DNA of 64,000 nt from Terriglobia bacterium (GCA_028716525.1 JAQUPQ010000018.1:1-64000), one strand, 5' to 3'. Counted from the stretch's first letter, positions 2,884 through 31,372 are shown. Notes: a model not told the origin generated them from the letters alone. Made by a program: numbers and translations.

Positions 2884-3987
2884 ATGATGAAAGACGTGGC
2901 TAAGGAATTTAAGGGCCGCACGGTGTTCGTAACCGGAGCCGACGGGTTTATTGGCTCGCATTTGACGGAAAAACTGGTGGAGTATGGAGCCGACGTGAGG
3001 GTGTTTGTTCGCGCCACCTCCAGCGATGAGTTGCGAAACATCCATCATCTCCGCGATAAAGTTCGGGTCTACCGCGGCAACCTCATCGATAAGCATTCCG
3101 TCGACCTGGCCGTTCGAGATTTGAAAGAGGGTCACGAAACCATCATTTTTCATTTGGCGGCTCAGGCGCATGTGGGCGAGAGCTGGGAGCGGCCGTACGA
3201 TACCATGTATTCCAATGTGGTCGGCACATTGAACTTGCTGCAATCCGTCATCGATAACGACATCAAGATTTTCAAGTTCGATACGGCCGGGACATCCGAG
3301 GAGTATGGAAACATCAAGGAAGACGTCCGGCACCATCACGATTTCGACGAGAACGGGAGCGTCATTCTGCACGAGCGCTCGCCCATCAATCCCAAGAGCG
3401 TTTATGCCACCTCCAAGCTGGCCTCTGATTTTTTGACCATGAATTTTTACGATGCCTATCGTTTGCCGGCCGTCACCACGCGAATGTTCAACAATTATGG
3501 GCCGCGGCAGAATCCCCGTTACGTGACCGGAACCATCATCAGTCAGGCCCTCAAGCGCGACACCATTGAGCTGGGATATGTCAAAGCCAAACGTGATTTT
3601 TGTTTCGTGGAGGACGGCATTCACGGGCACATGCATGTGGCGCTCTATGGGCATCCCGGCGAGGTTTACACCTATGGGCAGGGCGAGAACATCTCGATCC
3701 AGGACTGGTTTCAATTGATTTTGAAAATCGGTGAGCGCGAAGGCTTTTGGAAGAAGAAACCGCTTCAGATTGCGGAACAGCGCTTTCGACCCGGCACGAG
3801 TGACGTGGAGGAATTGCTTGTGGGTTATAAGAAAATCAACCAACTCAGCGGATGGGAACCCAAATTTTCCTGGGAGGAAGGAATTCTCCGGACCATCCGT
3901 TGGTATGCCGAGAACATGCACAAATGGATCGGCCGCGTCGATTGGGTGCAGCCCGAGCGGGTGACCGATAAGGCCACCCTGGTTTGA
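2884..3987 (+). CDS. NAD-dependent epimerase/dehydratase (GDP-mannose 4,6-dehydratase-like)
   Basis: This extended short-chain dehydrogenase has the Rossmann motif GADGFIGSH at residues 18-26, HLAAQAHVGES, and the YxxxK pair Y174/K178 (VYATSK). RMFNNYGPRQ and a conserved FCFVEDGIHGH segment are also present. The acidic residue expected near the active site is supplied by TAGTSEEYG. A strong ribosome site (CAGGAGG) sits just before ATG 2884; ATG 2887 is equally possible. It probably makes a 4-keto-6-deoxy sugar nucleotide or epimerises one. The following fucose-synthase-like gene favours GDP-mannose as substrate, but the sequence alone does not settle this. First gene of the polysaccharide locus. 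Confidence 0.85.
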   Translation: MMKDVAKEFKGRTVFVTGADGFIGSHLTEKLVEYGADVRVFVRATSSDELRNIHHLRDKVRVYRGNLIDKHSVDLAVRDLKEGHETIIFHLAAQAHVGESWERPYDTMYSNVVGTLNLLQSVIDNDIKIFKFDTAGTSEEYGNIKEDVRHHHDFDENGSVILHERSPINPKSVYATSKLASDFLTMNFYDAYRLPAVTTRMFNNYGPRQNPRYVTGTIISQALKRDTIELGYVKAKRDFCFVEDGIHGHMHVALYGHPGEVYTYGQGENISIQDWFQLILKIGEREGFWKKKPLQIAEQRFRPGTSDVEELLVGYKKINQLSGWEPKFSWEEGILRTIRWYAENMHKWIGRVDWVQPERVTDKATLV

Positions 3988-18479: not shown

Positions 18480-18620
18480 GATTGCCGGGCTGCGATGAGG
18501 TTTTCGGATCTGCTTGAGTCCCGAAGGGACGACGTTGAGTAGCCCGGGGCGTCAGCCCCGGGAATACATCCGACATAACCATCAAGCCCCGGAGGGGCGG
18601 CAGAGGCCGCTTCTGCTCTC
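18480..18620. repeat. Cluster of REP-like GC palindromes
   Basis: The 347-bp gap before the next gene contains GTCCCGAAGGGAC, a perfect CCCGGGGC/GCCCCGGG stem (18543-18562) and a CCCCGGAGGGGC palindrome. These resemble the TAGCCC...GGGG REP family seen again at 20940-20960 and 35046-35138. No gene is seen here. Confidence 0.6.
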
Positions 18621-21030: not shown

Positions 21031-21167
21031 GGGTAGCTCGCCCGCATTTTATCAGGGCGAGGCTTTTCGGTGAGGCGTGAAGACACCTGCGGATTTGGTG
21101 AATTCTTTGCATCTGCCCACAATAGCCGCTGCCTGCGTCCCCCGCGGGGGACTTGGCATCGCTACCC
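21031..21167. repeat. GGGTAGC...GCTACCC palindromic element, copy 1
   Basis: The element starts GGGTAGCTCGCCCGC and ends GGCATCGCTACCC, giving 7-bp terminal inverted repeats. A CCCCCGCGGGGG palindrome sits near the right end. A second full copy is at 25763-25933 and a right-half fragment at 27388-27430, which shows dispersal. The rest of the 20918-21398 gap holds only the inverted repeat described at 21276-21353. Confidence 0.7.
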
Positions 21168-21275
21168 AGCCGCTGAACATGCTAGTCACCATGGCCGGGT
21201 TTGCCGAATTTGTTTTTCGTGGCTCCCTTGATGTAAGCTGCTGAGGTCGAACGAATTGTTTGTTTAAAAATCTAT

Positions 21276-21353
21276 TTTAATCGGCTGAATTAGGCCACGG
21301 CAAGCGCGGGGTCCGCATCGGACGCCCTTAAGACCTAATACAGCTTAATCCTT
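21276..21353. repeat. Imperfect inverted repeat upstream of first DUF4386 gene
   Basis: GCTGAATTAGGCC (21284-21296) pairs with GACCTAATACAGC (21332-21344) at 11 of 13 positions, and the stem continues outwards with two unpaired bases. The 26-bp right arm (21328-21353) recurs with one mismatch at 23721-23746, in front of the second DUF4386 gene. It may be a transferred cassette boundary or leader. Confidence 0.5.
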
Positions 21354-21398
21354 AATGGGACGGCCCCAGTGGTACAAACATGAGCGTGGAGGTCTGAC

Positions 21399-22118
21399 AT
21401 GATGGAACGAATAGACACGTCGCCGCGGTTTAGGGCCAGACTTGCCGGTGTGTTTTATCTGCTCACCTTCGTAACCGGAGGGCTCGCCATCTTCGCTCGC
21501 CACGGGCTTGTAGTAGATGAGAACGCCCCAGCAACAGCAACCAACATCCTGGCGCACGAGTTCCTATTTCGGCTAGGCACCGCAGGCGACATTCTCGTGG
21601 TCGCGTGGTATGTCGCTGTGACGGCTCTCTTCTATGGCTTGTTCAAGCCGGTCAGCAAAAGCGGGTCTCTGGTTGCAGCATGTTTCGGCCTCATGGGATG
21701 CGCTGTTCTGGGTTTTACCTGTCTCTTTCAGTTGGCTCCCTTTGTCGTCTTGCAAGGTGCGCAGTACTCCAGCGTCTTCAGGGTGGAGCAGCTGCAAGCG
21801 CTTGCGTACATGTCTCTCGAATTGTATGGCCAGACCTACAGCATAGCCGTAGTGTTTTTCGGGTTCTATTGCCTTCTGATTGGCGGACTCATACTCAAGT
21901 CTACTTTCCTGCCTCGAATTCTGGGCGCGCTGATGGTGCTCGCCGGTTTAGGTTGGCTGACCTTTCTGTCGACGCCGCTGGCGAAATCTTTATCCCCCTA
22001 CATTCTGGCCCCCGGCATCGTCGGGGAAGGATCGCTGACCGTGTGGCTCCTCATCAAAGGCGTGGATGATTCAAAGTGGAAGGAGGAAGCCAAGTCTTGC
22101 GAGGTTGTCGGTGGTTGA
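21399..22118 (+). CDS. DUF4386 membrane protein, paralogue 1
   Basis: The 239-residue product has about six hydrophobic segments. DUF4386 marks are visible: RLAGVFYLLTFVTGG, ATATNILAHEFLFRLG, VEQLQALAYMSLELYG, STFLPRILGALMVLAGLGWL and a C-terminal VWLLIKGV. The family's function is unknown. Paralogues at 23777 and 29286 share the same order of segments but differ widely in sequence. ATG ATG at the start leaves a 3-bp uncertainty. The stop is followed directly by a truncated gene fragment. Confidence 0.75.
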   Translation: MMERIDTSPRFRARLAGVFYLLTFVTGGLAIFARHGLVVDENAPATATNILAHEFLFRLGTAGDILVVAWYVAVTALFYGLFKPVSKSGSLVAACFGLMGCAVLGFTCLFQLAPFVVLQGAQYSSVFRVEQLQALAYMSLELYGQTYSIAVVFFGFYCLLIGGLILKSTFLPRILGALMVLAGLGWLTFLSTPLAKSLSPYILAPGIVGEGSLTVWLLIKGVDDSKWKEEAKSCEVVGG

Positions 22119-22124
22119 TAAAGG

Positions 22125-22344
22125 TGCATCGAGGCGGGCGACGTCAAGGCAATCGAAGCCGCGCAGAAGACGAGCGCAAGACAGATCGATGCCTCACTGC
22201 CCGGAAAGCCATTTGACCAATGGTTGCGCGAGGCGGTGGGTCCAGAGGCAAAGATCATGTGGAAAATCAACGACTGTGGCGAACAAACCGGCAATCCTGT
22301 GTTGGATAAGGGGCGGGACTTTCCTATTTGTGTGGAAGAATTTT
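22125..22344 (+). pseudogene. Gene fragment truncated at both ends
   Basis: An open frame encodes CIEAGDVKAIEAAQKTSARQ and later KIMWKINDCGEQTGNPVLDK and GRDFPICVEEF. No start codon lies between the DUF4386 stop and this frame, and the coding pattern ends exactly where palindromic element A begins. I do not recognise the family. It is best read as a remnant of a gene cut by rearrangement. Confidence 0.55.
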
Positions 22345-22496
22345 ATGGGGTCAGATCGGGACAACCGGACAATTGCGGATTTGCTGGTGCGGACAATCTG
22401 GCAAAGTTGATATTTCTTTGGTTGCGCTTGGAAGGGATGGCGGCCGATCATTCTCCACCAATTTTCAATTGTCCAAATGTCCCGATCTGACCCCAT
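22344..22496. mobile_element. Palindromic TIR element, copy A
   Basis: Perfect 19-bp terminal inverted repeats ATGGGGTCAGATCGGGACA (22345-22363) and its complement (22478-22496). The stem continues with GGACAATTG after three variable bases. It is preceded by TTTTAT and has no visible target-site duplication. The interior is about 80% or more identical to copies C and D. There is no transposase, so it is non-autonomous. It separates a 3'-truncated gene fragment from the ankyrin gene. Confidence 0.8.
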
Positions 22497-22794
22497 CTGC
22501 GAAGACGCAGCGTTTGATCATCTCCATTACCTCGTCAAGAAGGGCGACGTTCCTGGTGTGCGCACTTGGCTGCGCGGGGGCGGTGACCCGAACCTCCTGA
22601 ATAGGTTCGGTTGGTCGCTTCTGATGCTCGCGGCGCTGCACGGTCGAACGGGCATCGCTCTGGCCCTAATCGAGTCCGGCGCTGACCCGCATCTCAAGAA
22701 CCGCTTCGGCGACACAGCTGTCCGCCTCGCCGCTGACAAGGGCTTCCGTCGGACGGTTGAGGTCATCGAACGCGCGGCTGGTAAAGGACAGTGA
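22477..22794 (+). CDS. Small ankyrin-repeat protein with element-derived N terminus
   Basis: The 105-residue frame has two to three ankyrin repeats: DHLHYLVKKGDVPGVRTWLR, GGDPNLLNRFGWSLLMLAAL, HGRTGIALALIESGADPHLK and NRFGDTAVRLAADKGF. Its first codons (MSRSDPI) lie inside the right terminal repeat of element A, so the native start was probably lost and replaced. Expression therefore is uncertain. Ankyrin proteins bind other proteins; no partner is evident. Confidence 0.6.
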   Translation: MSRSDPICEDAAFDHLHYLVKKGDVPGVRTWLRGGGDPNLLNRFGWSLLMLAALHGRTGIALALIESGADPHLKNRFGDTAVRLAADKGFRRTVEVIERAAGKGQ

Positions 22795-22925
22795 CAACCA
22801 CCTATTTTTCTGTGGACTCTCCCGGAAATTTCTGCAACTTTGCTTTCGGGGAAGCGTATAGGGACTACCGCCGGGACACTGGGTTCCCGGGGGAATAGAT
22901 TAGCCTTGGAGGTGGAAGATCAAGA

Positions 22926-23504
22926 ATGAGAACTCGAAAACTTGCGCTGGGTGTCATCGTGCTCATTGTTTGTGTTGGGGGTGTGCTTGTTCTGAATTCA
23001 CTCAGACCTAAGTATGTTGGCCAAGCGCACACGGAAGCGATGATCAACGGAAAGAAAGTCTCCATTGTTTACGGGCAACCGAGCGTGGAGGGCCCGGCGA
23101 TTGGCGGACGCGATCCACTTTCAATTGCACCAGTCGGGTTCGTATGGAGATTCGGCCGCAACGAGGCCACCCTTATCGAATCGGCCGGTCGGATGGTGGT
23201 GGGTGGAAAAGAATTGGCGGCGGGAAAATACACGTTATGGGCCCGGAGACTGGGCGAAGACCAGTGGGTCATCTCTTTCCATCCGAAAACATGGGAATGG
23301 TACGGCCGTCCGTTATGGGGCGATGTGACGGGGGGCGCTGCAAGGCTACAAGACGGATTCATCGCCGATATGCCGTTAACCACTGAAAAAGTTAGCGATC
23401 GGGCGAAATTCCTGAATATCAAGCTCAGTGAAGACAAGGGCCAAGCCGTGGTCACGATTCACTTCGGCAATATCGTTCAGACGGGAACCTTCACCGTGAA
23501 CTAG
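22926..23504 (+). CDS. DUF2911 family exported protein
   Basis: The 192-residue protein has a single N-terminal hydrophobic segment (LALGVIVLIVCVGGVLVLN), either anchor or signal. DUF2911 marks follow: SIVYGQPSVEGP, GFVWRFGRNEATLIE, ELAAGKYTLWA and WVISFHPKTWEWYG. DUF2911 proteins are secreted or periplasmic beta proteins of unknown function, common in Bacteroidota and Acidobacteriota. Complete by length. Its leader holds a CCGGGA...CCCGGG hairpin. Confidence 0.8.
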   Translation: MRTRKLALGVIVLIVCVGGVLVLNSLRPKYVGQAHTEAMINGKKVSIVYGQPSVEGPAIGGRDPLSIAPVGFVWRFGRNEATLIESAGRMVVGGKELAAGKYTLWARRLGEDQWVISFHPKTWEWYGRPLWGDVTGGAARLQDGFIADMPLTTEKVSDRAKFLNIKLSEDKGQAVVTIHFGNIVQTGTFTVN

Positions 23505-23637
23505 CGCGCCCCTCGCATAGATGACCCTCTCTGTTCTCTTTTGCGAGGCATCTATCGGAGGATGGGCGGGTGGCGCCCCGACATGTCGGGGCGATGGACA
23601 TTGTTTCGGCATGCATTGATCATGTGAGGGCGTCCTT

Positions 23638-23708
23638 CAAACCCCGCAGACATGCCAGATGCGCATGTCTGCGCCACCCCGCCGTCCGCCGGCGGCGGAC
23701 GGGGTTTG
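23638..23708. repeat. Nested palindrome before second DUF4386 gene
   Basis: CAAACCCCG (23638-23646) pairs with CGGGGTTTG (23700-23708) around an inner CAGACATG/CATGTCTG stem and a GTCCGCCGGCGGCGGAC near-palindrome. No gene lies in 23536-23776. The structure resembles the other REP-like elements of this region. Confidence 0.55.
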
Positions 23709-23776
23709 GTTCTCACTCCTTTAAGGCCTAATACAGCTTAATCCTTTGTTGGGCAGCGCTGTTGTGGAGGAGGCAA

Positions 23777-24526
23777 ATGATGGAACGGATCGGAGAAGGG
23801 TCGCCGCACCCCAAAGCGCGGACTATCGGTGTCGTCTTTCTGCTGTACTTCCTGACGGCATCCTTAGCGGGATTCCTGACGAAAGGCCTCGTGGTTCCAG
23901 GCGATGCTGCCGCAACGGCGAACAGCATCCTGGCGCATGAGGCTCTGTATCGGTCAGGGTTTGCTGTCGGCTTCATCGCCAACGTGATCTATATCGTTGT
24001 TACGGCACTGTTCTATAGACTGCTTCGACGCGTGAACTGGAGACTCTCCTTGGTTGCGGCGTTCTGCAGCCTCGTTGGGTGCGCGATTCAGATCTTTGGC
24101 GGCCTCTTGCAGCTCGCCCCGTTTCTCATCCTTAGAGACAGGCAATTGTCAAACGTCTTCACGGTGGAGCAGTTGCAGGCAGCGGCGCTGCTGAGCCTCA
24201 AGCTGTACGCCGAGATGTTCCATATTTCCTTCGTCCTGTTCGCGTTCTTTATGCTCGTGCTCGGCTATCTCATTTTCAGGTCGACGTTCCTCCCTCGAAT
24301 CCTTGGCGTGTTGTGGATGTGTGCCGGTGTGGGTGGGCTAACTTTCCTTTGGCCGCCGCTTGCAACCGTACTATGGTCCTATGTGGTTCTACCGCTCGAC
24401 GGTTTTGCCGAACTCTTGTTGACGCTTTGGCTCCTCGTGAAAGGCGTCAATGTTTCGAGGTGGCAAGAGAAAGGGGAAGAACAAAAGAGGTCAGGCGGCG
24501 ACATTCGACAAATGAAAGACTCTTGA
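23777..24526 (+). CDS. DUF4386 membrane protein, paralogue 2
   Basis: GGAGGAGG at 23766-23773 precedes ATG 23777 and ATG 23780. The product of about 249 residues has the DUF4386 pattern: TIGVVFLLYFLTASLAGF, TANSILAHEALYRSGF, VEQLQAAALLSLKLYAEMF, STFLPRILGVLWMCAGVGGL and a C-terminal LWLLVKGV. About six membrane segments; function unknown. The C-terminal tail is polar and basic. It sits in the direct-repeat-bounded segment. Confidence 0.75.
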   Translation: MMERIGEGSPHPKARTIGVVFLLYFLTASLAGFLTKGLVVPGDAAATANSILAHEALYRSGFAVGFIANVIYIVVTALFYRLLRRVNWRLSLVAAFCSLVGCAIQIFGGLLQLAPFLILRDRQLSNVFTVEQLQAAALLSLKLYAEMFHISFVLFAFFMLVLGYLIFRSTFLPRILGVLWMCAGVGGLTFLWPPLATVLWSYVVLPLDGFAELLLTLWLLVKGVNVSRWQEKGEEQKRSGGDIRQMKDS

Positions 24527-24665
24527 TGAAGAGGGTCACCTATGAAGAGGGGCGGTCCCCCGCGGGGGATCAAGTGCAAAGATGACCCTCTCTGTTGTCT
24601 TCAGGATGTGGCGTCGTAAACTATTCTGGAGACGACCCAATTCAAGTAATCTTGGAAAAATACTT

Positions 24666-25655
24666 ATGAAAGCAATTGTATGCACACGTTACGGCCCACC
24701 GGAAGTGCTTCGACTCACGGAGGTCGAGCGACCCATCCCGCGCCGGAACCAGATCCGCATTCGGATCTTCGCGACGTCCGTGAGCTTCAGCGACATCCTC
24801 GTTCGTGGTATGAACGTGCCCCGCCGGTATCGGATTCCGTTTCGATTGCTGGCGGGTTGGAAGGCGCCGCGCCGGCGCATCCTGGGAATGGTCCTCTCTG
24901 GAGACGTCGAGTCCATCGGCCGGAACGTCACGTCATTCAAGGTAGGCGATCAGATATTCGGCATGAGTCGCTGGAAGGTCGGCGCCTATGCGGAGGAGGT
25001 TTGCTGGTCGGCAAACACTCTCCTGGCGTTCCGGCCGAAAAACCTGAGCGACGAAGAGGCCGCGGCCCTTCCGTACGGTGGCCTGCTGGCGATCCATTGC
25101 CTGCGCAAGGCCAAGATCCAGCCCGGTCAACGCGTGCTGGTCTATGGCGCTTCAGGCGCCATCGGCACCGCGGCTGTCCAGCTCGCCAGGCACTTCGGGG
25201 CTAGCGTGACCGGCGTGTGCAGCACCACGAATCTGAAACTCGTCGAGTCGCTCGGCGCGGAAGCCGTTCTCGACTACACACGAGAGGACTTCACCAGCCG
25301 CGGCGAGCGCTACGACGTCATCTTGGACGCCGTGGGAAAGCGCAAGAGCGCGGCCGCGATGCGGGATGCCGAACGCGCACTGACGACAGGCGGTACCTGC
25401 ATCTCGATCGATGACGACTTTCCGAGGCCGACCCAGCAGGACCTGGATCTGCTGAAGCGGCTGGCCGAGTCGGGAGTGCTGAAGCCGGTCATCGATCGCT
25501 GCTATCCGCTGGAGGAGATCGTCGAGGCTCACCGGTACGTCGAGCTGGGACACAAGAAGGGCAACGTGATTGTGACCGTCGGGCCATCGGCGCACCGCGG
25601 AATGAATTTCCCCAGAAATCGATGCGATTCTGTTTCGCGAGCGCCATCGCTGTGA
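24666..25655 (+). CDS. NAD(P)H quinone oxidoreductase-like (zinc-free MDR family)
   Basis: ATG 24666 gives the typical MDR start MKAIVCTRYGPPEVLRLTEV. The 329-residue protein has the GroES-like fold and the cofactor loop VLVYGASGAIGTAAVQLAR, followed by LGAEAVLDYTREDF. The zinc-ligand Cys/His set of alcohol dehydrogenases is absent, which places it with quinone oxidoreductases. It probably reduces quinones or enones with NADPH. The last 15 residues (RGMNFPRNRC...) look unlike the family and may be readthrough into intergenic sequence. Confidence 0.8.
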   Translation: MKAIVCTRYGPPEVLRLTEVERPIPRRNQIRIRIFATSVSFSDILVRGMNVPRRYRIPFRLLAGWKAPRRRILGMVLSGDVESIGRNVTSFKVGDQIFGMSRWKVGAYAEEVCWSANTLLAFRPKNLSDEEAAALPYGGLLAIHCLRKAKIQPGQRVLVYGASGAIGTAAVQLARHFGASVTGVCSTTNLKLVESLGAEAVLDYTREDFTSRGERYDVILDAVGKRKSAAAMRDAERALTTGGTCISIDDDFPRPTQQDLDLLKRLAESGVLKPVIDRCYPLEEIVEAHRYVELGHKKGNVIVTVGPSAHRGMNFPRNRCDSVSRAPSL

Positions 25656-25762
25656 ACGATGTTCTGAGCATCCTGCGTGAGGAGTTCTGCAATGGTTCGG
25701 AGCTCAAACGGCCGGCCTGGTGCTTTGGTAGCGCCGACGCGTTTGTGAGTCGTCGGCTTTTT

Positions 25763-25933
25763 GGGTAACTCGCCCGCGTTTTTTAGGACGAAGATTTTTT
25801 ATGGCCCGCGGCAGTCCCCTACGAGGAAACGTCGCGCAGGATTTGGCCGCGAGAAGAAATCTAAATGGTCGTTTGCATCTGCCCGCAAAAGCCGCTGCCT
25901 GCGTCCCCCGCGGGGGACTTGGCATCGCTACCC
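25763..25933. repeat. GGGTAAC...GCTACCC palindromic element, copy 2
   Basis: It shares with copy 1 the left end (CTCGCCCGCGTTTT here), the TTTGCATCTGCCC segment and the whole right part GCCGCTGCCTGCGTCCCCCG onwards. The middle is longer by about 35 bp. It occupies most of the 316-bp gap between the quinone reductase and the SnoaL-like gene and carries no frame of interest. Confidence 0.7.
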
Positions 25934-25971
25934 AGCTTTGAGTGTTGGCGGCAGCACCTGCAGGGTTGGAC

Positions 25972-26532
25972 TCACTGACCAGCCGACCAAGGCTCCTTGA
26001 ACAAACCGAGTTGACGGTACAAATCCAGTTCATTAAGGAACACCCATTCTTCCGCGATCTTCCCATCCACGAAGCGCCACACGGTCAACGTCGGGAATTC
26101 ATAGCGCTTTCCCGTTGGAGGAAGTCCATGAAAAACTCCGGTATGCGTTCCTTTGGCAACAACACACACGGCGACTTTGTCTCCTTCGGCAATCATCCAT
26201 TTTTCCGTGATGGTGAGATCAGCGGACAAATCAAACTGCCCTTTGGCATCTCGCATTTCTTCCGATAGATTCTCCGCCGGGTTGTTGTTGTAGTGCTTCA
26301 CAAAGTCCTTGGTGTGTAGTTCTTCAAACCGTTGGAAGTCCCTGTGATTCAGGTATTCGAACGCAGCCCGCGCTACGGCTTTATTCTGCTCCACCAATTT
26401 GCCCCGGGCAGCGGGGCTCGCTATCGGAGGGAAGCACAGTCCCATACAAATGACGACTGCCATAGCTCCTGGTGCGCGATAGCTGCGTCCAAACGATTGC
26501 TTGCTTTTCTCCATGAGTTCTATTTTCTTCAT
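25972..26532 (-). CDS. Exported SnoaL-like/ester cyclase family protein
   Basis: The 186-residue protein has an N-terminal hydrophobic segment (PGAMAVVICMGLCFPPIASP), likely a signal peptide. A SnoaL/NTF2-like cone follows: NKAVARAAFEYLNHRDFQRF, DFVKHY, KWMIAEGDKVAVCVVAKGTH and FPTLTVWRFVDGKIAEEWVF. Such folds bind small hydrophobic ligands or catalyse cyclisation; the substrate is unknown. A MerR-type operator directly upstream implies control by the adjacent regulator. This is one of the two minus-strand genes in the accessory region. Confidence 0.75.
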   Translation of the reverse strand: MKKIELMEKSKQSFGRSYRAPGAMAVVICMGLCFPPIASPAARGKLVEQNKAVARAAFEYLNHRDFQRFEELHTKDFVKHYNNNPAENLSEEMRDAKGQFDLSADLTITEKWMIAEGDKVAVCVVAKGTHTGVFHGLPPTGKRYEFPTLTVWRFVDGKIAEEWVFLNELDLYRQLGLFKEPWSAGQ

Positions 26533-26641
26533 GACGGTCTCCTGAATGAGATACGGGAGGGTCGAGATACAAGCCTCCCCGCATTCGCCCCAATGACCTT
26601 ACCGTGTTCCGCGTCACATGGGAACGTTGAGGGCAGTCTGA

Positions 26642-26666
26642 ACCCTACACTTAGGTATAGGGTCAA
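26642..26666 (-). promoter_or_regulatory. MerR-type operator/promoter for the SnoaL-like gene
   Basis: Read on the minus strand, a -35 box TTGACC (26661-26666) is followed by a 19-20 bp spacer holding the dyad ACCCTATAC-CTAA-GTGTAGGGT, whose arms match at 8 of 9 positions. Overlong spacers with a central dyad are the hallmark of promoters that MerR proteins untwist. The site lies 9 bp past the stop of the MerR gene and points at the SnoaL-like gene. Confidence 0.75.
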
Positions 26667-26674
26667 GCGAAAAA

Positions 26675-27136
26675 TTAGGAGATGGCAATGGGGGTGGGTC
26701 GGGAGGAGTGGCGGCGATCAGACGGAGCTTTCTTCCGTTTTCGAGCGTCAAGCCAAGCGTGAATTTGATGTAATTCCTCTACCAATTCATCACGAATTTG
26801 AATGGCCGAGCGGATTTGTCCGTTCATGGACTGCAGCTTTTTTTCCCCCAGCTTTAACGATTCGCGTAGGCAGTCCAGTGATCCTCGCTGATATGGAGAA
26901 GCCGCGCCCGAATCGCTGGGTAGAACCCACAACTGCAGCACACGCCGGATTTCCACCAGCTTGAAACCAAATCGCTGCATCTTTTTTATTATCGTGACGT
27001 TCTCCAGGTCGTTCTCGCCATAGACGCGATAGCCCGAAGGCGTCCGCCGGGGGGTGCGCATCAGGCGGCGCCGTTCGTAAAAGCGGATCGCCTGCACGCT
27101 CACCCCCGCCCGCTTCGCCAGCTCCCCAATTCTCAT
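26675..27136 (-). CDS. MerR-family transcriptional regulator
   Basis: The 153-residue protein starts MRIGELAKRAGVSVQAIRFY, the MerR winged helix, with ERRRLMRTPRRTPSGYRVYG as wing. A coiled-coil dimer helix follows (about residues 90-130). One Cys (LDCLRESL) is present at about residue 90; the metal-binding Cys set of MerR, ZntR or CueR is not complete, so the signal is probably not a simple metal. It very likely controls the SnoaL-like gene through the operator between them. Confidence 0.88.
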   Translation of the reverse strand: MRIGELAKRAGVSVQAIRFYERRRLMRTPRRTPSGYRVYGENDLENVTIIKKMQRFGFKLVEIRRVLQLWVLPSDSGAASPYQRGSLDCLRESLKLGEKKLQSMNGQIRSAIQIRDELVEELHQIHAWLDARKRKKAPSDRRHSSRPTPIAIS

Positions 27137-27222
27137 ACGCAGAGCATAACACGCGCTCGTAGCCCGTCGCCAGAAAACATGACTGCGATTTTCAAACGTC
27201 GGAGCAAGCGATCGTATTATGT

Positions 27223-27380
27223 TATGGGGTCAGATCGGGACATTTGGACAATTGAAAATTGCCGGGGAAAAATCGATTCCCATCCCTTTCAAGCGCAACC
27301 AAAGAAATATCAACTCTGCCAGATTGTTCGCACCAGCGAATCCGCAATTGTCCGGTTGTCCCGATCTGACCCCCTCAGTA
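27223..27380. mobile_element. Palindromic TIR element, copy B (interior inverted)
   Basis: The outer ends run the same way as in copies C and D (left TTATGGGGTC, right GACCCCCTCAGTA). The interior between the terminal repeats is reversed: the TTTGGACAATTGAAAATTGCC end is on the left and GCAATTGTCCGG on the right. Preceded by GTTAT. It lies between the MerR gene and a fragment of the GGGTAG-type element. Confidence 0.8.
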
Positions 27381-27387
27381 TTCAAAA

Positions 27388-27430
27388 GCCGCTGCCTGCG
27401 TCCGCCGAGGCGGACTTGGCATCGCTACCA
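27388..27430. repeat. Right-half fragment of the GGGTAG...CTACC element
   Basis: GCCGCTGCCTGCGTCC and GGACTTGGCATCGCTACC match the right part of the full copies at 21031 and 25763, with CGCCGAGGCG at the palindrome centre. The left half is missing. It directly follows element B, so one may have inserted near or into the other. The surrounding 27137-27685 gap has no gene apart from these elements and the hairpin at 27611. Confidence 0.65.
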
Positions 27431-27610
27431 AAGCATTGAACATTCGGTTATACCCATGAGTTGAAGGGTGGGCGAAAGGTCAAGAGCCCCTAGACGACTT
27501 GTGAGGGGGCGCCGGCGTGTTATGCGGAAACCCGATAAAACACCGGGGAAGGAATCGGCCGAACATAAAACTTTGAAAAGCTAGCCGTTGCAAAGATCAC
27601 CGGCTGTTGT

Positions 27611-27631
27611 ATTATCTGGAAACCAGATAAT
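27611..27631 (+). promoter_or_regulatory. Perfect hairpin/operator-like dyad before DinB gene
   Basis: ATTATCTGG-AAA-CCAGATAAT is a perfect 9-bp dyad 55 bp upstream of the DinB-family start. It has the size of a dimeric repressor site and lies where a promoter would be expected. No cognate regulator is adjacent. Confidence 0.4.
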
Positions 27632-27685
27632 CAGTAGTTGCGTGGCTACCGTTTTGCAGGGACGAACATAGGGAGAAGAGGAGCG

Positions 27686-28126
27686 ATGCATATCCTGGAG
27701 CACCTGTTTCTGGTCGGCGAATTCCCCGCGCGAGCCCACCTGCTGTCCGGGCTGACGCTCGAGCAAGTCACGCTATGCCCGGACGGCGCGTCGCACTCGA
27801 TCTACGAGGAGCTGTGGCACGTTGTGTCGTATCAGCAGAGTATCATCGAGCCGGGCGAACCGGCCCGCGACGTGTACCCGAGCGCGGCGCCGGAGCACGA
27901 GCACCAATGGTATGACTTGGTGCGAGCGTTCCTGGACGGCGCTCGCGCAGCAGCAGCGATGGGGCAGGCGCCTGAGCGGTTGGCGGTCGAGGTACAGCGG
28001 GGCGTGACAATGGCCGACGAGCTAAACAGTGTGGCGGTACATAACGCATATCACCTTGGGAAGATCGTTGCGTTGCGGCAGCGGATCGGCGCGTGGCCGC
28101 CCCCGGCAGCGTCGGACGGGTCGTAA
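27686..28126 (+). CDS. DinB-family four-helix protein
   Basis: ATG 27686 follows GGGAGAAGAGGAG. The 146-residue protein has the DinB/DfsB fold marks: H in EELWHVVSYQQ, and the pair in NSVAVHNAYHLGKIVALRQR. These three His could bind a divalent metal as in family members that act as thiol-dependent transferases. GC content is higher than in its neighbours, which suggests separate origin. Substrate unknown. Confidence 0.78.
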   Translation: MHILEHLFLVGEFPARAHLLSGLTLEQVTLCPDGASHSIYEELWHVVSYQQSIIEPGEPARDVYPSAAPEHEHQWYDLVRAFLDGARAAAAMGQAPERLAVEVQRGVTMADELNSVAVHNAYHLGKIVALRQRIGAWPPPAASDGS

Positions 28127-28335
28127 CCGCAGGCGCCATGGGACTCCGCTAGGATTCAATTTTGAACTACAACACTGACGGTGGCTGCATAGTACATTAA
28201 TGTTGTGCTCGTGAGCGTGCGGTCTCGCGATAGCGCATGTGGCTCGAAGTCGGACTGGTAATGCATCCGTATCAGCACTTCTGGCCAACATACGCGTTGG
28301 TGAAATACTATTGAACTTCATCGCGCCCAAACGCC

Positions 28336-28434
28336 ACCCAACTCGGCGCTGGATCCGACTTCGACCCAGCGTCTGATAGGTTTACATTCACGCTCCTTGT
28401 GTGGGCCGAAGCGGCTCAGCTGGGGACGTTAGCC
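28336..28434 (+). other. Candidate integron attC recombination site
   Basis: ACCCAAC (28336-28342, RYYYAAC type) and GTTAGCC (28428-28434, close to GTTRRRY) bound 99 bp. Inside, the left arm GCTGGATCCGACTTCGACCC pairs with the complement of the right arm GGGCCGAAGCGGCTCAGC. Two left-arm bases (a G and an A) have no partner and stay extrahelical. Unpaired spacers of 5 and 7 bases separate the arms from the outer boxes, and an AGCGT/ACGCT stem tops the fold. This is the architecture of a folded attC. No integrase is in the window, and the R box departs at one base. Confidence 0.45.
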
Positions 28435-28481
28435 CGCGGGAGAGACGACGCTTCACCCAAAATCACGAATAGGAGACAGAT

Positions 28482-28865
28482 ATGAAGAGAGTCACTGGCA
28501 TCGGCGGTATTTTCTTCAAGGCCAAAGACGCTCCCTCACTGCAGGCTTGGTACAAGCGGCACTTGGGAATCGATGTCCAAGCCTGGGGCGGAGCTGCCTT
28601 CGATTGGACCGACGCCGAGGGCAAGCCGGTTGCCGGCACAACTGCCTGGTTAATCGATTCGCAAGAAAGTAATCACTTTGCTCCGAGCTCTGCTCCCTTC
28701 ATGGTCAACTACCGAGTGGAAGACCTCCACGCTTTGGTCAAGGCCTTGAAGGAAGAAGGCTGCAATGTGCTCGAGAAGATTGACGAATCCGAGTATGGGA
28801 AGTTTGCCTGGGTAATTGATCCAGAGGGAAACAAGGTCGAGCTATGGGAGCCGCCTCAAGGCTAA
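28482..28865 (+). CDS. VOC (glyoxalase/bleomycin-resistance fold) protein
   Basis: ATAGGAGACAGAT precedes ATG 28482. The 127-residue protein has the paired beta-alpha-beta-beta-beta units of the VOC fold: GGIFFKAKDAPSLQAWYKRH, MVNYRVEDLHALVKALKEEG and FAWVIDPEGNKVELWEPP, whose final Glu is a usual metal ligand. Function could be metal-dependent isomerase, dioxygenase or binding protein. Its stop overlaps GGCTAAT, nearly complementary to the GTTAGCC at the upstream attC-like site, as expected if the gene were a cassette. Confidence 0.8.
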   Translation: MKRVTGIGGIFFKAKDAPSLQAWYKRHLGIDVQAWGGAAFDWTDAEGKPVAGTTAWLIDSQESNHFAPSSAPFMVNYRVEDLHALVKALKEEGCNVLEKIDESEYGKFAWVIDPEGNKVELWEPPQG

Positions 28866-28903
28866 TGACCGGGCTGGTTACTCACGGCCGCGAACTGCGT
28901 TAT

Positions 28904-29061
28904 TATGGGGTCAGATCGGGACAACCGGACAATTGCGGATTCGCTGGCGCGGACAACCTGGCAAAGTTGATACTTCTTTGGTTGCGCTTGGAAGGGATGG
29001 GAATCGATTTTTCCCCGGCAATTTTCAATTGTCCAAATGTCCCGATCTGACCCCCTCAGTA
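28904..29061. mobile_element. Palindromic TIR element, copy C
   Basis: The terminal repeat ATGGGGTCAGATCGGGACA starts at 28905 and the right end is GACCCCCTCAGTA (to 29061). Same interior orientation as A and D. Preceded by TATTAT. It lies 38 bp after the VOC stop and joins directly to a 5'-truncated DUF4386 remnant. Confidence 0.8.
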
Positions 29062-29068
29062 CAAAGCG

Positions 29069-29248
29069 ATGGCTGCGGTCGGCGTGATCTCGCCTGCGTG
29101 GTGCGTGGCCTGCACTTTCGTTCTCCTCATTTTTCCCGACTTCCGCAGCGTAGTGAACTGGTGGTACGATTCGCCTATGGGTATCTTCGAAATGGTTCTG
29201 AGTTTTTGGCTTCTGTTTAGGGGGATACGAACACCGCTCATTGAGTAA
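29069..29248 (+). pseudogene. C-terminal remnant of a fourth DUF4386-type gene
   Basis: A 59-codon frame reads MAAVGVISPAWCVACTFVLL and later SPMGIFEMVLSFWLLFRGIR. It resembles the last two membrane segments and the LWLLxKGV tail of the three complete DUF4386 proteins in this region. The N-terminal two thirds are missing, and the boundary lies at palindromic element C. The chance in-frame ATG may not be a native start. Confidence 0.55.
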
Positions 29249-29285
29249 CGGTCCCTGCGTAACCGGAAAACAAGGAGGGAGCGTC

Positions 29286-29984
29286 ATGCACCCAACCGAC
29301 AAGGCAGCAAGAGTCGCAGGAGCGGTTTATTTATCGATGGCAGTCACCGCCCCTTTCAGCTTGATCTATGTTCCCCGCACTTTGATTATGCGCGGTGACG
29401 CCACCGCGACCGCGAACAGCATCCTGACCCACGAGACCCTTTTCCGTCTCGGTATCGTCGCTGAGCTGATCACCTCGGTCATTTTTGTCTTTGTGGTCAT
29501 GGCTCTCTACCGTTTGCTCAGCGGCGTGAACAAGACGCATGCTTCGCTGATGGTAGCGTTGGTTCTGGTCTCCGCCGCGGTCGGGTTTATGAATGTGCTG
29601 AGCAACATCGCCGCCCTTACCCTCTTCCGCGGCGCCGATTTCCTGTCTGTATTCAACAAAGGTCAGCTAGACGCTCTGGGCATGCTGTTCCTCCACGTGC
29701 ATGCCCAGGGACTCGTTATCAACGAAATCTTTTCGGGCTTCTGGCTTTTCCCCTTCGGCGTGCTGGTGATGAGATCGCGCTTCCTGCCCCGTATTTTGGG
29801 CGTCTGGCTGATCGTCAACTGCTTCGCCTATCTGGCCCTTAGCTTTACGGGCGTACTGTTACCGCAATACTACGGTGCGGTCTTTAACATTACTCTCCCC
29901 GCCCTCCTCGGAGAGATAGCGATCACGCTATGGCTTCTGATCAAGGGCGCCAAGGTGCAACCGGTGTTCGCCCCAGCCTCTTGA
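29286..29984 (+). CDS. DUF4386 membrane protein, paralogue 3
   Basis: AAGGAGGGAGCG precedes ATG 29286. The 232-residue protein has six hydrophobic segments and the family marks: VAGAVYLSMAVTAPFSLIY, ATANSILTHETLFRLGIVAE, KGQLDALGMLFLHVHAQG, SRFLPRILGVWLIVNCFAYL and ITLWLLIKGA. The HVHAQG motif aligns with the LELYGQ and LKLYAE segments of paralogues 1 and 2. Function unknown. Confidence 0.78.
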   Translation: MHPTDKAARVAGAVYLSMAVTAPFSLIYVPRTLIMRGDATATANSILTHETLFRLGIVAELITSVIFVFVVMALYRLLSGVNKTHASLMVALVLVSAAVGFMNVLSNIAALTLFRGADFLSVFNKGQLDALGMLFLHVHAQGLVINEIFSGFWLFPFGVLVMRSRFLPRILGVWLIVNCFAYLALSFTGVLLPQYYGAVFNITLPALLGEIAITLWLLIKGAKVQPVFAPAS

Positions 29985-30052
29985 TTGAGTGGTGGTGGCG
30001 CGCGCCCCGCAGCACCCTTGATTTAGTCGTTTGGCAAGGAGGTAATAGGAGT

Positions 30053-30286
30053 ATGAATACAGCGATATTGACCGGCCAGTTTCTCCCCGATCGCCTCGAC
30101 AACATATCGCGGTTACAAGCTCGCACTTTGGCTCTTTGCCCTGGTCGTGGTTATAAAGGTTGCCATGAGCCTGAACTCGATTTTTAACGGTTACATGTTG
30201 GCGAGTGCCGCGGACGGGATTCCACTAGACACATATACGCCAGCCGGCGCACAGGCAGTCGTTTCTCTTTTTGCGGCCTTGAACAT
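30053..30286 (+). pseudogene. Frameshifted, 3'-truncated small membrane protein gene
   Basis: A good ribosome site (AAGGAGGTAATAGGAG) leads ATG 30053, which encodes MNTAILTGQFLPDRLDN. The coding sense then continues in another frame from about 30110: YKLALWLFALVVVIKVAMSL, then NSIFNGYMLASAADGIPLDT, up to SLFAALN. A single-base change near 30108 breaks the frame, and palindromic element D replaces the 3' part. Family not recognised; at least one membrane helix. Confidence 0.6.
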
Positions 30287-30444
30287 TATGGGGTCAGATC
30301 GGGACATTTGGACAATTGCGGATTCACTGGTGCGAACAATCTGGCAAAGTTGATATTTCTTTGGTTGCGCTTGGAGGGGATGGGAATCGATTTTTCCCCA
30401 GCAATTTCCAATTGTCCAAATGTCCCGATCTGACCCCCTCAGTA
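30287..30444. mobile_element. Palindromic TIR element, copy D
   Basis: Starts TATGGGGTC after CAT and ends GACCCCCTCAGTA at 30444. The interior is oriented as in A and C, but the three variable bases of the left arm are TTT, matching its own right arm rather than the ACC of A and C. That fits gene conversion between arms. It cuts off the preceding gene and lies 24 bp before the DoxX-like start. Confidence 0.8.
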
Positions 30445-30467
30445 GGATTGGCACCGGAACACGAGCG

Positions 30468-31250
30468 ATGGGAATCAGAAGCTTGGGCCATGCTTTCTTT
30501 GCGGCGACGATGGTCGCCCTGGGAATCTCGGGCCTGATCCAAGGCGATTTCACTCCGACATGGGCGGGGGTGCCGAAGAGTGTTCCCGCGCGTGAGGTAC
30601 TAGCCTATCTCTCTGCCTTTATTTCTCTGCTATCTGGCATAGGCTTACTCTGGCGGCGCGCAGCCGTCATCGCCGCCCGCTTGCTGCTCAGCTCTTTCTT
30701 GGTTTGGATGCTGCTGTTTCGGGTGTCTCTCATCTTTCGTGCTCCTACGGCCACGGTTACCTGGTGGGCCCTGGGAGACACCGCAGCGATGGCGGCGGCC
30801 TCCTGGGTTTTATACACATGGTTCGCCGGAGATCGGGACCGAAATCACCTCAGTTTCGCCGTCAGCGACAAAGGTTTGCGCATCGCGAGGGTGTTTTACG
30901 GTCTGGCTTTGATCCCCTTCGGCGTCGCGCATTTCACCTATCTTGAAAGAACCGTCTCGATGGTCCCTGGCTGGTTGCCATGGCATGTGGCTTGGGCGTA
31001 CTTCACCGGCTGTGCCTTCATCGCGGCGGGCGTGGCGGTGCTTATCGGCGTGTATGCGCGGCTGGCAGCTACGCTCTCCACGTTGCAGCTGGGCCTGTTC
31101 ACGCTGCTGGTGTGGGTACCGATCATCGTGGCGGGCCCCAACGCTTCCCAATGGACCGAGTTTGTCAGCTCTTGGACGTTGACGGCCGGCGCCTGGATGG
31201 TGGCGGATTCCTACCGCGGCACGCCTTGGCTCGCCGTGGGCAAGCACTAG
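30468..31250 (+). CDS. DoxX-like membrane protein
   Basis: The 260-residue product has about seven hydrophobic segments arranged as two similar halves ([40 protein letters not shown]), a DoxX-like pattern. I chose ATG 30468; an in-frame ATG at 30420 lies inside the terminal repeat of element D and would add element-coded residues. No strong ribosome site is seen for either. DoxX-like proteins are linked to redox or quinone functions, but this member's role is unknown. Confidence 0.7.
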
Positions 31251-31372
31251 CGTCGGCCACGCGCCGCCGATGTTGGATCGCTGTTTGGATTGTCAGGAAA
31301 GTTGGTCACGCCGCAGCTTAGTCCGGTCCGTTAGGCATCCCGCGGATTGGCAATGAATCCTAGGAGCGCATG

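Follow-up and report, generated by a model that had tools for sequence, protein, structure and literature searches.

The window analysed here is a stretch of 64,000 nucleotides from a Terriglobia bacterium, and it raises the question of why four palindromic elements of about 155 bp should lie where genes end abruptly in an accessory region. An earlier note on this DNA had proposed that recombination between the copies deletes and joins genes, which would make the element a shuffler of single-gene cassettes. The four hairpin-type copies described there (A to D, Table 1) are real, their eight terminal repeats forming four pairs at the reported places against a mean of 0.02 in shuffles of the window. 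All four cores are 148 bp long and agree with each other, without gaps, at 132-142 of 148 positions (89-96%, with B taken as its reverse complement). The 19-bp terminal inverted repeats said to be shared by all copies hold for copy A only, in which the ATGGGGTCAGATCGGGACA pair is perfect; the second base of the right end deviates in B, C, and D, leaving a perfect 17 bp within a repeat of 29-31 bp at approximately 90%. At its foot, the element has TTAT ahead of GGGG on the left side, and its right side ends in CTCAGTA or ATCTGCG; the right tail CTCAGTA is common to B, C, and D and absent from A. As single-stranded DNA, copy C folds with z = -5.9 relative to shuffles. The longest exact runs between same-orientation copies were 21-40 bp (36-40 bp is also quoted for the shared runs), the longest run between C and inverted B was 63 bp, and a mosaic comparison among the copies, made by eye, found few informative sites. 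Neither Rfam at the four copies nor the solved structures searched yielded a match.

Table 1. Elements, genes, and gene fragments of the junction region, with positions counted from the first nucleotide of the window.
Feature	Position	Strand	Remarks
Gene fragment left of A	22122..22343	+	No N-terminus, no C-terminus; intact homologues ~150-190 aa
Miniature TIRYT copy A	22343..22496	+	TTAT tail 22343-22346, core 22347-22494, without CTCAGTA right tail
Ankyrin-repeat gene right of A	22498..22794	+	Probably 5'-truncated; frame continuous with an ATG within A
attC 3'-half-like motif CAGCTTA...GTTGGGC	23734..23754	+	Before a DUF4386 gene
Copy B	27222..27380	-	Core 27226-27373 is the inverted interior; left TTAT and right CTCAGTA not inverted
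VOC gene and 3' flank	28482..28899	+	95% nucleotide identity to G001:C50 and G002:C100; match ends 3 bp before the tail of C
Copy C	28903..29061	+	TTAT tail, core 28907-29054, CTCAGTA tail
Y1 transposase gene 3'-end remnant in copy C	28938..29001	-	A, B, and D carry this arm too; from DNA alignment
DUF4386 3' fragment cut at C	29062..29248	+	Last 62 of ~235 residues kept
DUF4386 gene of the C-D interval, intact	29286..29984	+	84% protein identity to G109
Membrane-protein gene 5' fragment cut at D	30054..30285	+	Frameshifted; about the first half of ~155 residues kept
Copy D	30286..30444	+	TTAT tail, core 30290-30437, CTCAGTA tail
DoxX-like gene, intact	30468..31250	+	G308 homology starts where D ends on the right
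attC 3'-half-like motif CAGCTTA...GTTAGGC	31314..31336	+	After the DoxX-like gene

For the identity of the elements, our sequence comparisons indicate that the copies are non-autonomous miniature derivatives of TIRYT elements, which carry Y1/HUH tyrosine transposases and GGGGWSAS inverted repeats; they are a new family of such miniatures, the element type itself being ordinary and already known. The passages on TIRYT in PMC3733652 give GGGGWSAS inverted repeats, an acidobacterial group, and TIR dimers, and the account of Y1 subclass 2.1 in PMC6006769 gives a C-terminal HTH; the mobility of TIRYT is proposed in the relevant parts of both papers and not demonstrated there. In agreement with GGGGWSAS, each of the four copies has GGGGTCAG at its two ends. 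The same ends, with at most 2 mismatches, are found next to Y1 genes in the two genomes of the same family as the source, G001 and G002, lying on both sides of the gene at G002:C91:22700-23938, G002:C95:1606-2802, and G002:C29 and on one side at the other loci. The reading frames of these partners carry NHWH or NHYH (HUH) and YVHLNP (Y-x-x-x-NP), and their proteins match PF01797 above its cut-off. One of two proteins also gave a weak match to the Bac_DnaA_C HTH (E = 5e-4, 20.5 bits against a cut-off of 31.5 bits), and matches to the REP-associated transposase model NF047646 were partial and, at 53, 51, and 39 bits, below its cut-off of 80.

An origin of the miniatures by internal deletion is indicated by the left arm, which is homologous to the 3' ends of transposase genes. 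When this arm was aligned as DNA with the 3' ends of G001 and G002 elements, five of six gave z values of 4.3-5.6, and the right arm in the same alignment found no clear match. At the protein level the match to the transposase end was strongest in the two diverged copies that lie outside this cluster, on contigs C40 and C10; the reverse frame of the C40 copy scored 75 against the transposase C-terminus, compared with at most 38 in 300 shuffles, with RFQARLEEGLQLARLFAPANSQLSKCP on its reverse strand aligned with the transposase end RFEARLKKDPQLRELLALANSQLSKVP. Internal deletion of a TIRYT, as these alignments show, left both ends together with the last ~25 transposase codons. A TIRYT carried by the lineage presumably mobilised the miniatures in the form of single-stranded hairpins. 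No Y1 gene with matching ends was found among the ten Y1 loci of the genome itself, and its own Y1 genes were rejected as the source because the inverted repeats of all ten loci differ from GGGGTCAGATC. The case connects, at the sequence level, a family of miniatures with the transposase gene from which it descends.

The family is narrowly distributed. Six full copies were found in the 4.2 Mb of the genome, four of them within the 8-kb cluster, which does not bear out the high copy number around accessory genes that had been claimed; the remaining two (C40:27614 and C10:104037) are diverged (77-79%) and neither lies at a visible gene break. A class-wide search of 399 genomes returned full-length matches in the source genome only, and outside it the convincing matches were confined to G001 and G002 and to the ends of the element; three short matches elsewhere were judged to be due to chance. 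In the favoured explanation, four young copies gathered in one accessory region, in which genes are turned over by other means too, probable integron cassettes among them.

Intact relatives of the genes truncated at A, C, and D were located by a class-wide protein search and show that genes are cut short at these three copies; wherever the comparison could be made, the missing halves do not sit across the element in relatives. Between C and D, window positions 29065-30279 align without a break with G109:C42, from another family, over 1,233 bp at 80% nucleotide identity. G109 has complete versions of the DUF4386 gene truncated at C and of the gene truncated at D, and these enclose an intact DUF4386 gene, so that the C-D interval is one contiguous operon stretch (~1.2 kb) cut at both ends by C and D; homology to G109 ends on one side where the right tail of C lies and on the other within about 9 bp of the core of D. 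Measured against the intact relatives, C does precede a 5'-cut DUF4386 remnant and D does follow a frameshifted, 3'-cut gene, as the earlier note had read them, and the counterpart halves were not found, a search of the genome having produced paralogues only (on C31 at 52-58%, besides further members of the family). To the left of C, the VOC gene is complete and its 3' flank is cut, meaning that both neighbours of C are cut; past the end of the flank match, G001 runs on with different sequence. To the right of D, G308 has a different gene upstream of the DoxX-like gene (a 5-bp CAGTA match was also observed at this edge and may be chance). Homology stops 0-9 bp from the element at all four of these edges. 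Judged by the alignments, C and D each demonstrably join different loci, with the joins at the element edges, and the expectation that the flanks of a single copy come from different loci was borne out for both.

For copy A, the fragment to its left retains ~70 of ~150 residues and has lost both ends relative to four homologues, and the 5' cut, at 22118-22122, has no element. The ankyrin-repeat gene to its right has a closest homologue with ~85 more N-terminal residues and two others that start near the same point, and by this comparison the gene is probable but not certain to be without its native 5' end. The earlier description of A was accordingly right about a 3'-cut fragment (it is 5'-cut too) and probably right about a missing ankyrin start, and A is likely to be a junction between cut loci. 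Copy B shows no visible gene break. Chimaeric junctions at three of the four copies (A, C, and D) are uncommon and well supported. A flank test of ten further elements, nine from G001 and G002 plus the C40 copy, found none of the ten with both flanks contiguous elsewhere, and several flanks were without any match. The right flank of element m5 is a repeat with a transposase, of DDE type as judged by eye, that has inserted where the element ends, the left flank of m9 is itself a 187-bp fragment, and at m4 homology ends 26 bp short of the element, beside another GGGTCAG-like end. Because several cases are explained by other insertions or are uninformative, the flank test does not generalise the junction claim.

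We consider, with somewhat better than even confidence, that the cut genes are best explained by insertion of TIRYT-derived miniatures into genes followed by loss between copies. Copies would have inserted into genes at A, C, and D, and the DNA between pairs of copies would have been lost, most simply by recombination of near-identical repeats; the outcome would be one element left between two half-loci, the junctions seen at C and D and likely at A. The proposal that recombination between copies deletes and joins genes fits this sequence of events. States from before or after such a recombination were not observed, and a search for a second product found none. Some observations speak against recombination: the same-orientation exact runs of 36-40 bp are short for efficient homologous recombination, each junction requires two insertions and one deletion, the C40 and C10 copies lack a visible break, and the fragment left of A was cut at its 5' end without an element. 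Taken as a whole, the earlier reading holds for the different-locus flanks at C and D and for the missing halves, and is not supported for copy number or for the single-gene cassettes. To call the element a shuffler of single-gene cassettes goes too far: the C-D interval holds one whole gene and two fragments, and the A-B span holds about six genes. A wider role, in which miniature TIRYTs act as exchange points where recombination or transposase action repeatedly joins unrelated half-loci, can carry operon pieces lying between two copies, and drives gene shuffling in this acidobacterial family, seems to us unlikely. Literature searches on repeat-mediated shuffling by such elements yielded nothing on TIRYT.

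The shortness of the shared exact runs (at most 40 bp) weakens inter-copy recombination and also makes misassembly less likely. An assembly chimaera, in which metagenome contigs were joined at the repeats, might be suspected of a genome in 104 contigs, repeats being classic misjoin points; the exact matches, 21-40 bp for copies of like orientation and 63 bp between C and the inverted B, nonetheless fall short of the usual final k-mers, the missing halves lie beside a copy on no other contig, and the frameshift decay points to old pseudogenes, all of which leaves a chimaera very improbable. Ordinary insertion followed by unrelated one-sided deletions or decay in a dispensable accessory region, with the elements as bystanders or breakpoint marks, could draw on the decay that occurs in the region without elements (the frameshift left of D and the 5' cut left of A) and on the C40 and C10 copies at no visible break, but homology that ends so close to the element on both sides of C and both sides of D is unexpected four times over from unrelated deletions, and we regard this account as improbable. 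The composite movement of C, the operon piece, and D as a unit between the VOC gene and the DoxX-like gene, which would place VOC next to DoxX in an ancestor, is suggested by the shared orientation of C and D and by their exactly bounding one contiguous operon piece, as well as by the TIMEs, Tn3-derived miniatures that mobilise DNA between two copies (PMC4133298). The native 3' continuation of VOC in G001 (GCCTCACCAG...) is, however, unlike the right side of D, a comparison in which cassette order may differ; in addition, the TIRYT passages of PMC3733652 and PMC6006769 report no composites, and A is left unexplained, so that movement of this kind is quite unlikely. These junctions are ones where recombination, composite movement, and decay could be told apart.

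It is also conceivable, and in our view doubtful, that integron-driven cassette turnover made most of the mosaic, the elements having inserted into cassette tails or attC sites and then been carried along. G001 and G002 share the 3' flank of VOC as far as an attC-like end (CGCAGCTTA...), beyond which the genes that follow are different. Two canonical attC sites lie downstream of VOC on G001:C50 (2 in 17 kb by a strict scan, compared with ~0.2 per 64 kb in shuffles). The window itself has two attC 3'-half-like motifs beside gene ends, with 0.045 expected, but the strict scan detected no complete attC site in it, no integron integrase motif was found across the ~380 kb examined, and the C-D piece is an operon fragment rather than a cassette. 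Since the VOC gene beside C is near canonical attC sites in the sister genome G001, some cassette-like turnover is probably of other cause, and part of the single-gene mosaic is likely to stem from integron traffic that does not depend on the elements. The elements themselves were rejected as integron attC sites: the RYYYAAC ... GTTRRRY core sites are absent, the ends are GGGGTCAG, and the strict scan gave 0 in the window.

Apart from the junctions, copy B is unusual in that its interior is 93-95% identical to those of C and D only as the reverse complement, and its outer tails TTAT and CTCAGTA are oriented as in C and D despite the turned interior. A second family, of ~80-bp elements with a different interior, lies on contig C22 of the same genome; its copies 1 and 2 agree, and copy 3 is 48% identical as it stands and 90% with the interior turned, its tails CATAAAAA and CTTCATT being unturned. 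Small changes in which the loop of a hairpin is inverted are known, and the flipped interior of B would have arisen by such an inversion inside one copy's hairpin. That a second family likewise has a turned interior while its tails stay put bears on hairpin processing.

Among known systems, IS200/IS605 elements proper were rejected, as class 1 in the description given by PMC6006769 needs Y---Q and the partners carry Y---NP. The REPINs and RAYTs (Bertels and Rainey 2011, PMC3116915) are alike in having a hairpin of inverted short repeats, in non-autonomy, and in their related Y1 transposases, whereas the window elements are without the GTAG/GTGG hairpin foot, have a low copy number, and have ends unrelated to REPs; with no GT[AG]G foot and partners under the NF047646 cut-off, this assignment was discarded. 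The TIMEs (PMC4133298) are comparable as miniature elements with mosaic gene segments, but they belong to the Tn3 family, with 38-bp repeats and target duplications of 5-6 bp, and here the ends are of Y1 type with no evident target duplication. Integron cassettes and attC clusters resemble the locus in combining single genes with palindromic recombination sites, and VOC lies near such sites in G001; the 148-bp elements differ in lacking GTTRRRY/RYYYAAC cores and in being transposase derivatives. The closest likeness is to TIRYT/TIRtrons and TIR dimers (Di Nocera et al. 2013, PMC3733652; subclass 2.1, Quentin et al. 2018, PMC6006769), with which, as far as the TIRYT passages of these papers describe them, the elements share GGGGWSAS, occurrence in Acidobacteria, and inverted dimers, and the partners share a Y1/HUH protein with Y-x-x-x-NP (YVHLNP) and possibly a C-terminal DnaA-like HTH, to which one of two proteins gave a weak match. 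In contrast to those elements, the copies of the window are geneless, keep a 3'-end remnant of the transposase gene, include one with a flipped interior, and form a cluster of four at gene breaks.

At copy A of the element, the ankyrin gene (window 22477-22794) receives an in-frame ATG (MSRSDP...) from the element's right end, and the DoxX-like gene at copy D (window 30420-31250) likewise receives one from that end. The attC-like motifs of the window's accessory region were placed near gene starts and ends, with a further, degenerate motif also present, and in the same-family genome G001 canonical attC sites lay close to the VOC gene; these motifs and sites are possibly the remains of an integron cassette array. 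One copy of a second dispersed palindromic repeat adjoined element copy B, and the Acido-Lenti-1 RNA was flanked by a peptidase gene and an epimerase-like gene.

Coordinates of the additional features
Feature	Location	Positions
Palindromic repeat, GCCGCTGCCTGCGTCC..GG..GGACTTGGCATCGCTACC	window	21106-21170, 25872-25936, 27382-27433
Acido-Lenti-1 RNA (Rfam RF01687, 58 bits)	window, minus strand	18517-18562
attC-like motifs	window	23734-23754, 28417-28434, 31314-31336
Degenerate attC-like motif	window	21331-21360
attC, outside the window	stretches L264; L278	829-889; 14533-14607
Transposase-carrying repeat	stretches L125; L257; L258	from 3114 on; 2310; 2368
TIR dimers, ~80 bp	G000 C22 (L082)	2198-2278, 2929-3009, 3510-3592

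In G001 and a second same-family genome, G002, a repeat with a transposase gene (DDE type, judged by eye) sat directly at a GGGTCAG/TGACCC end three times, a placement that looks as if TIRYT ends were targeted. The TIR dimers on contig C22 of the source genome (G000) form a separate family, the third copy of which has an inverted interior between unturned tails, the same pattern as in window copy B.
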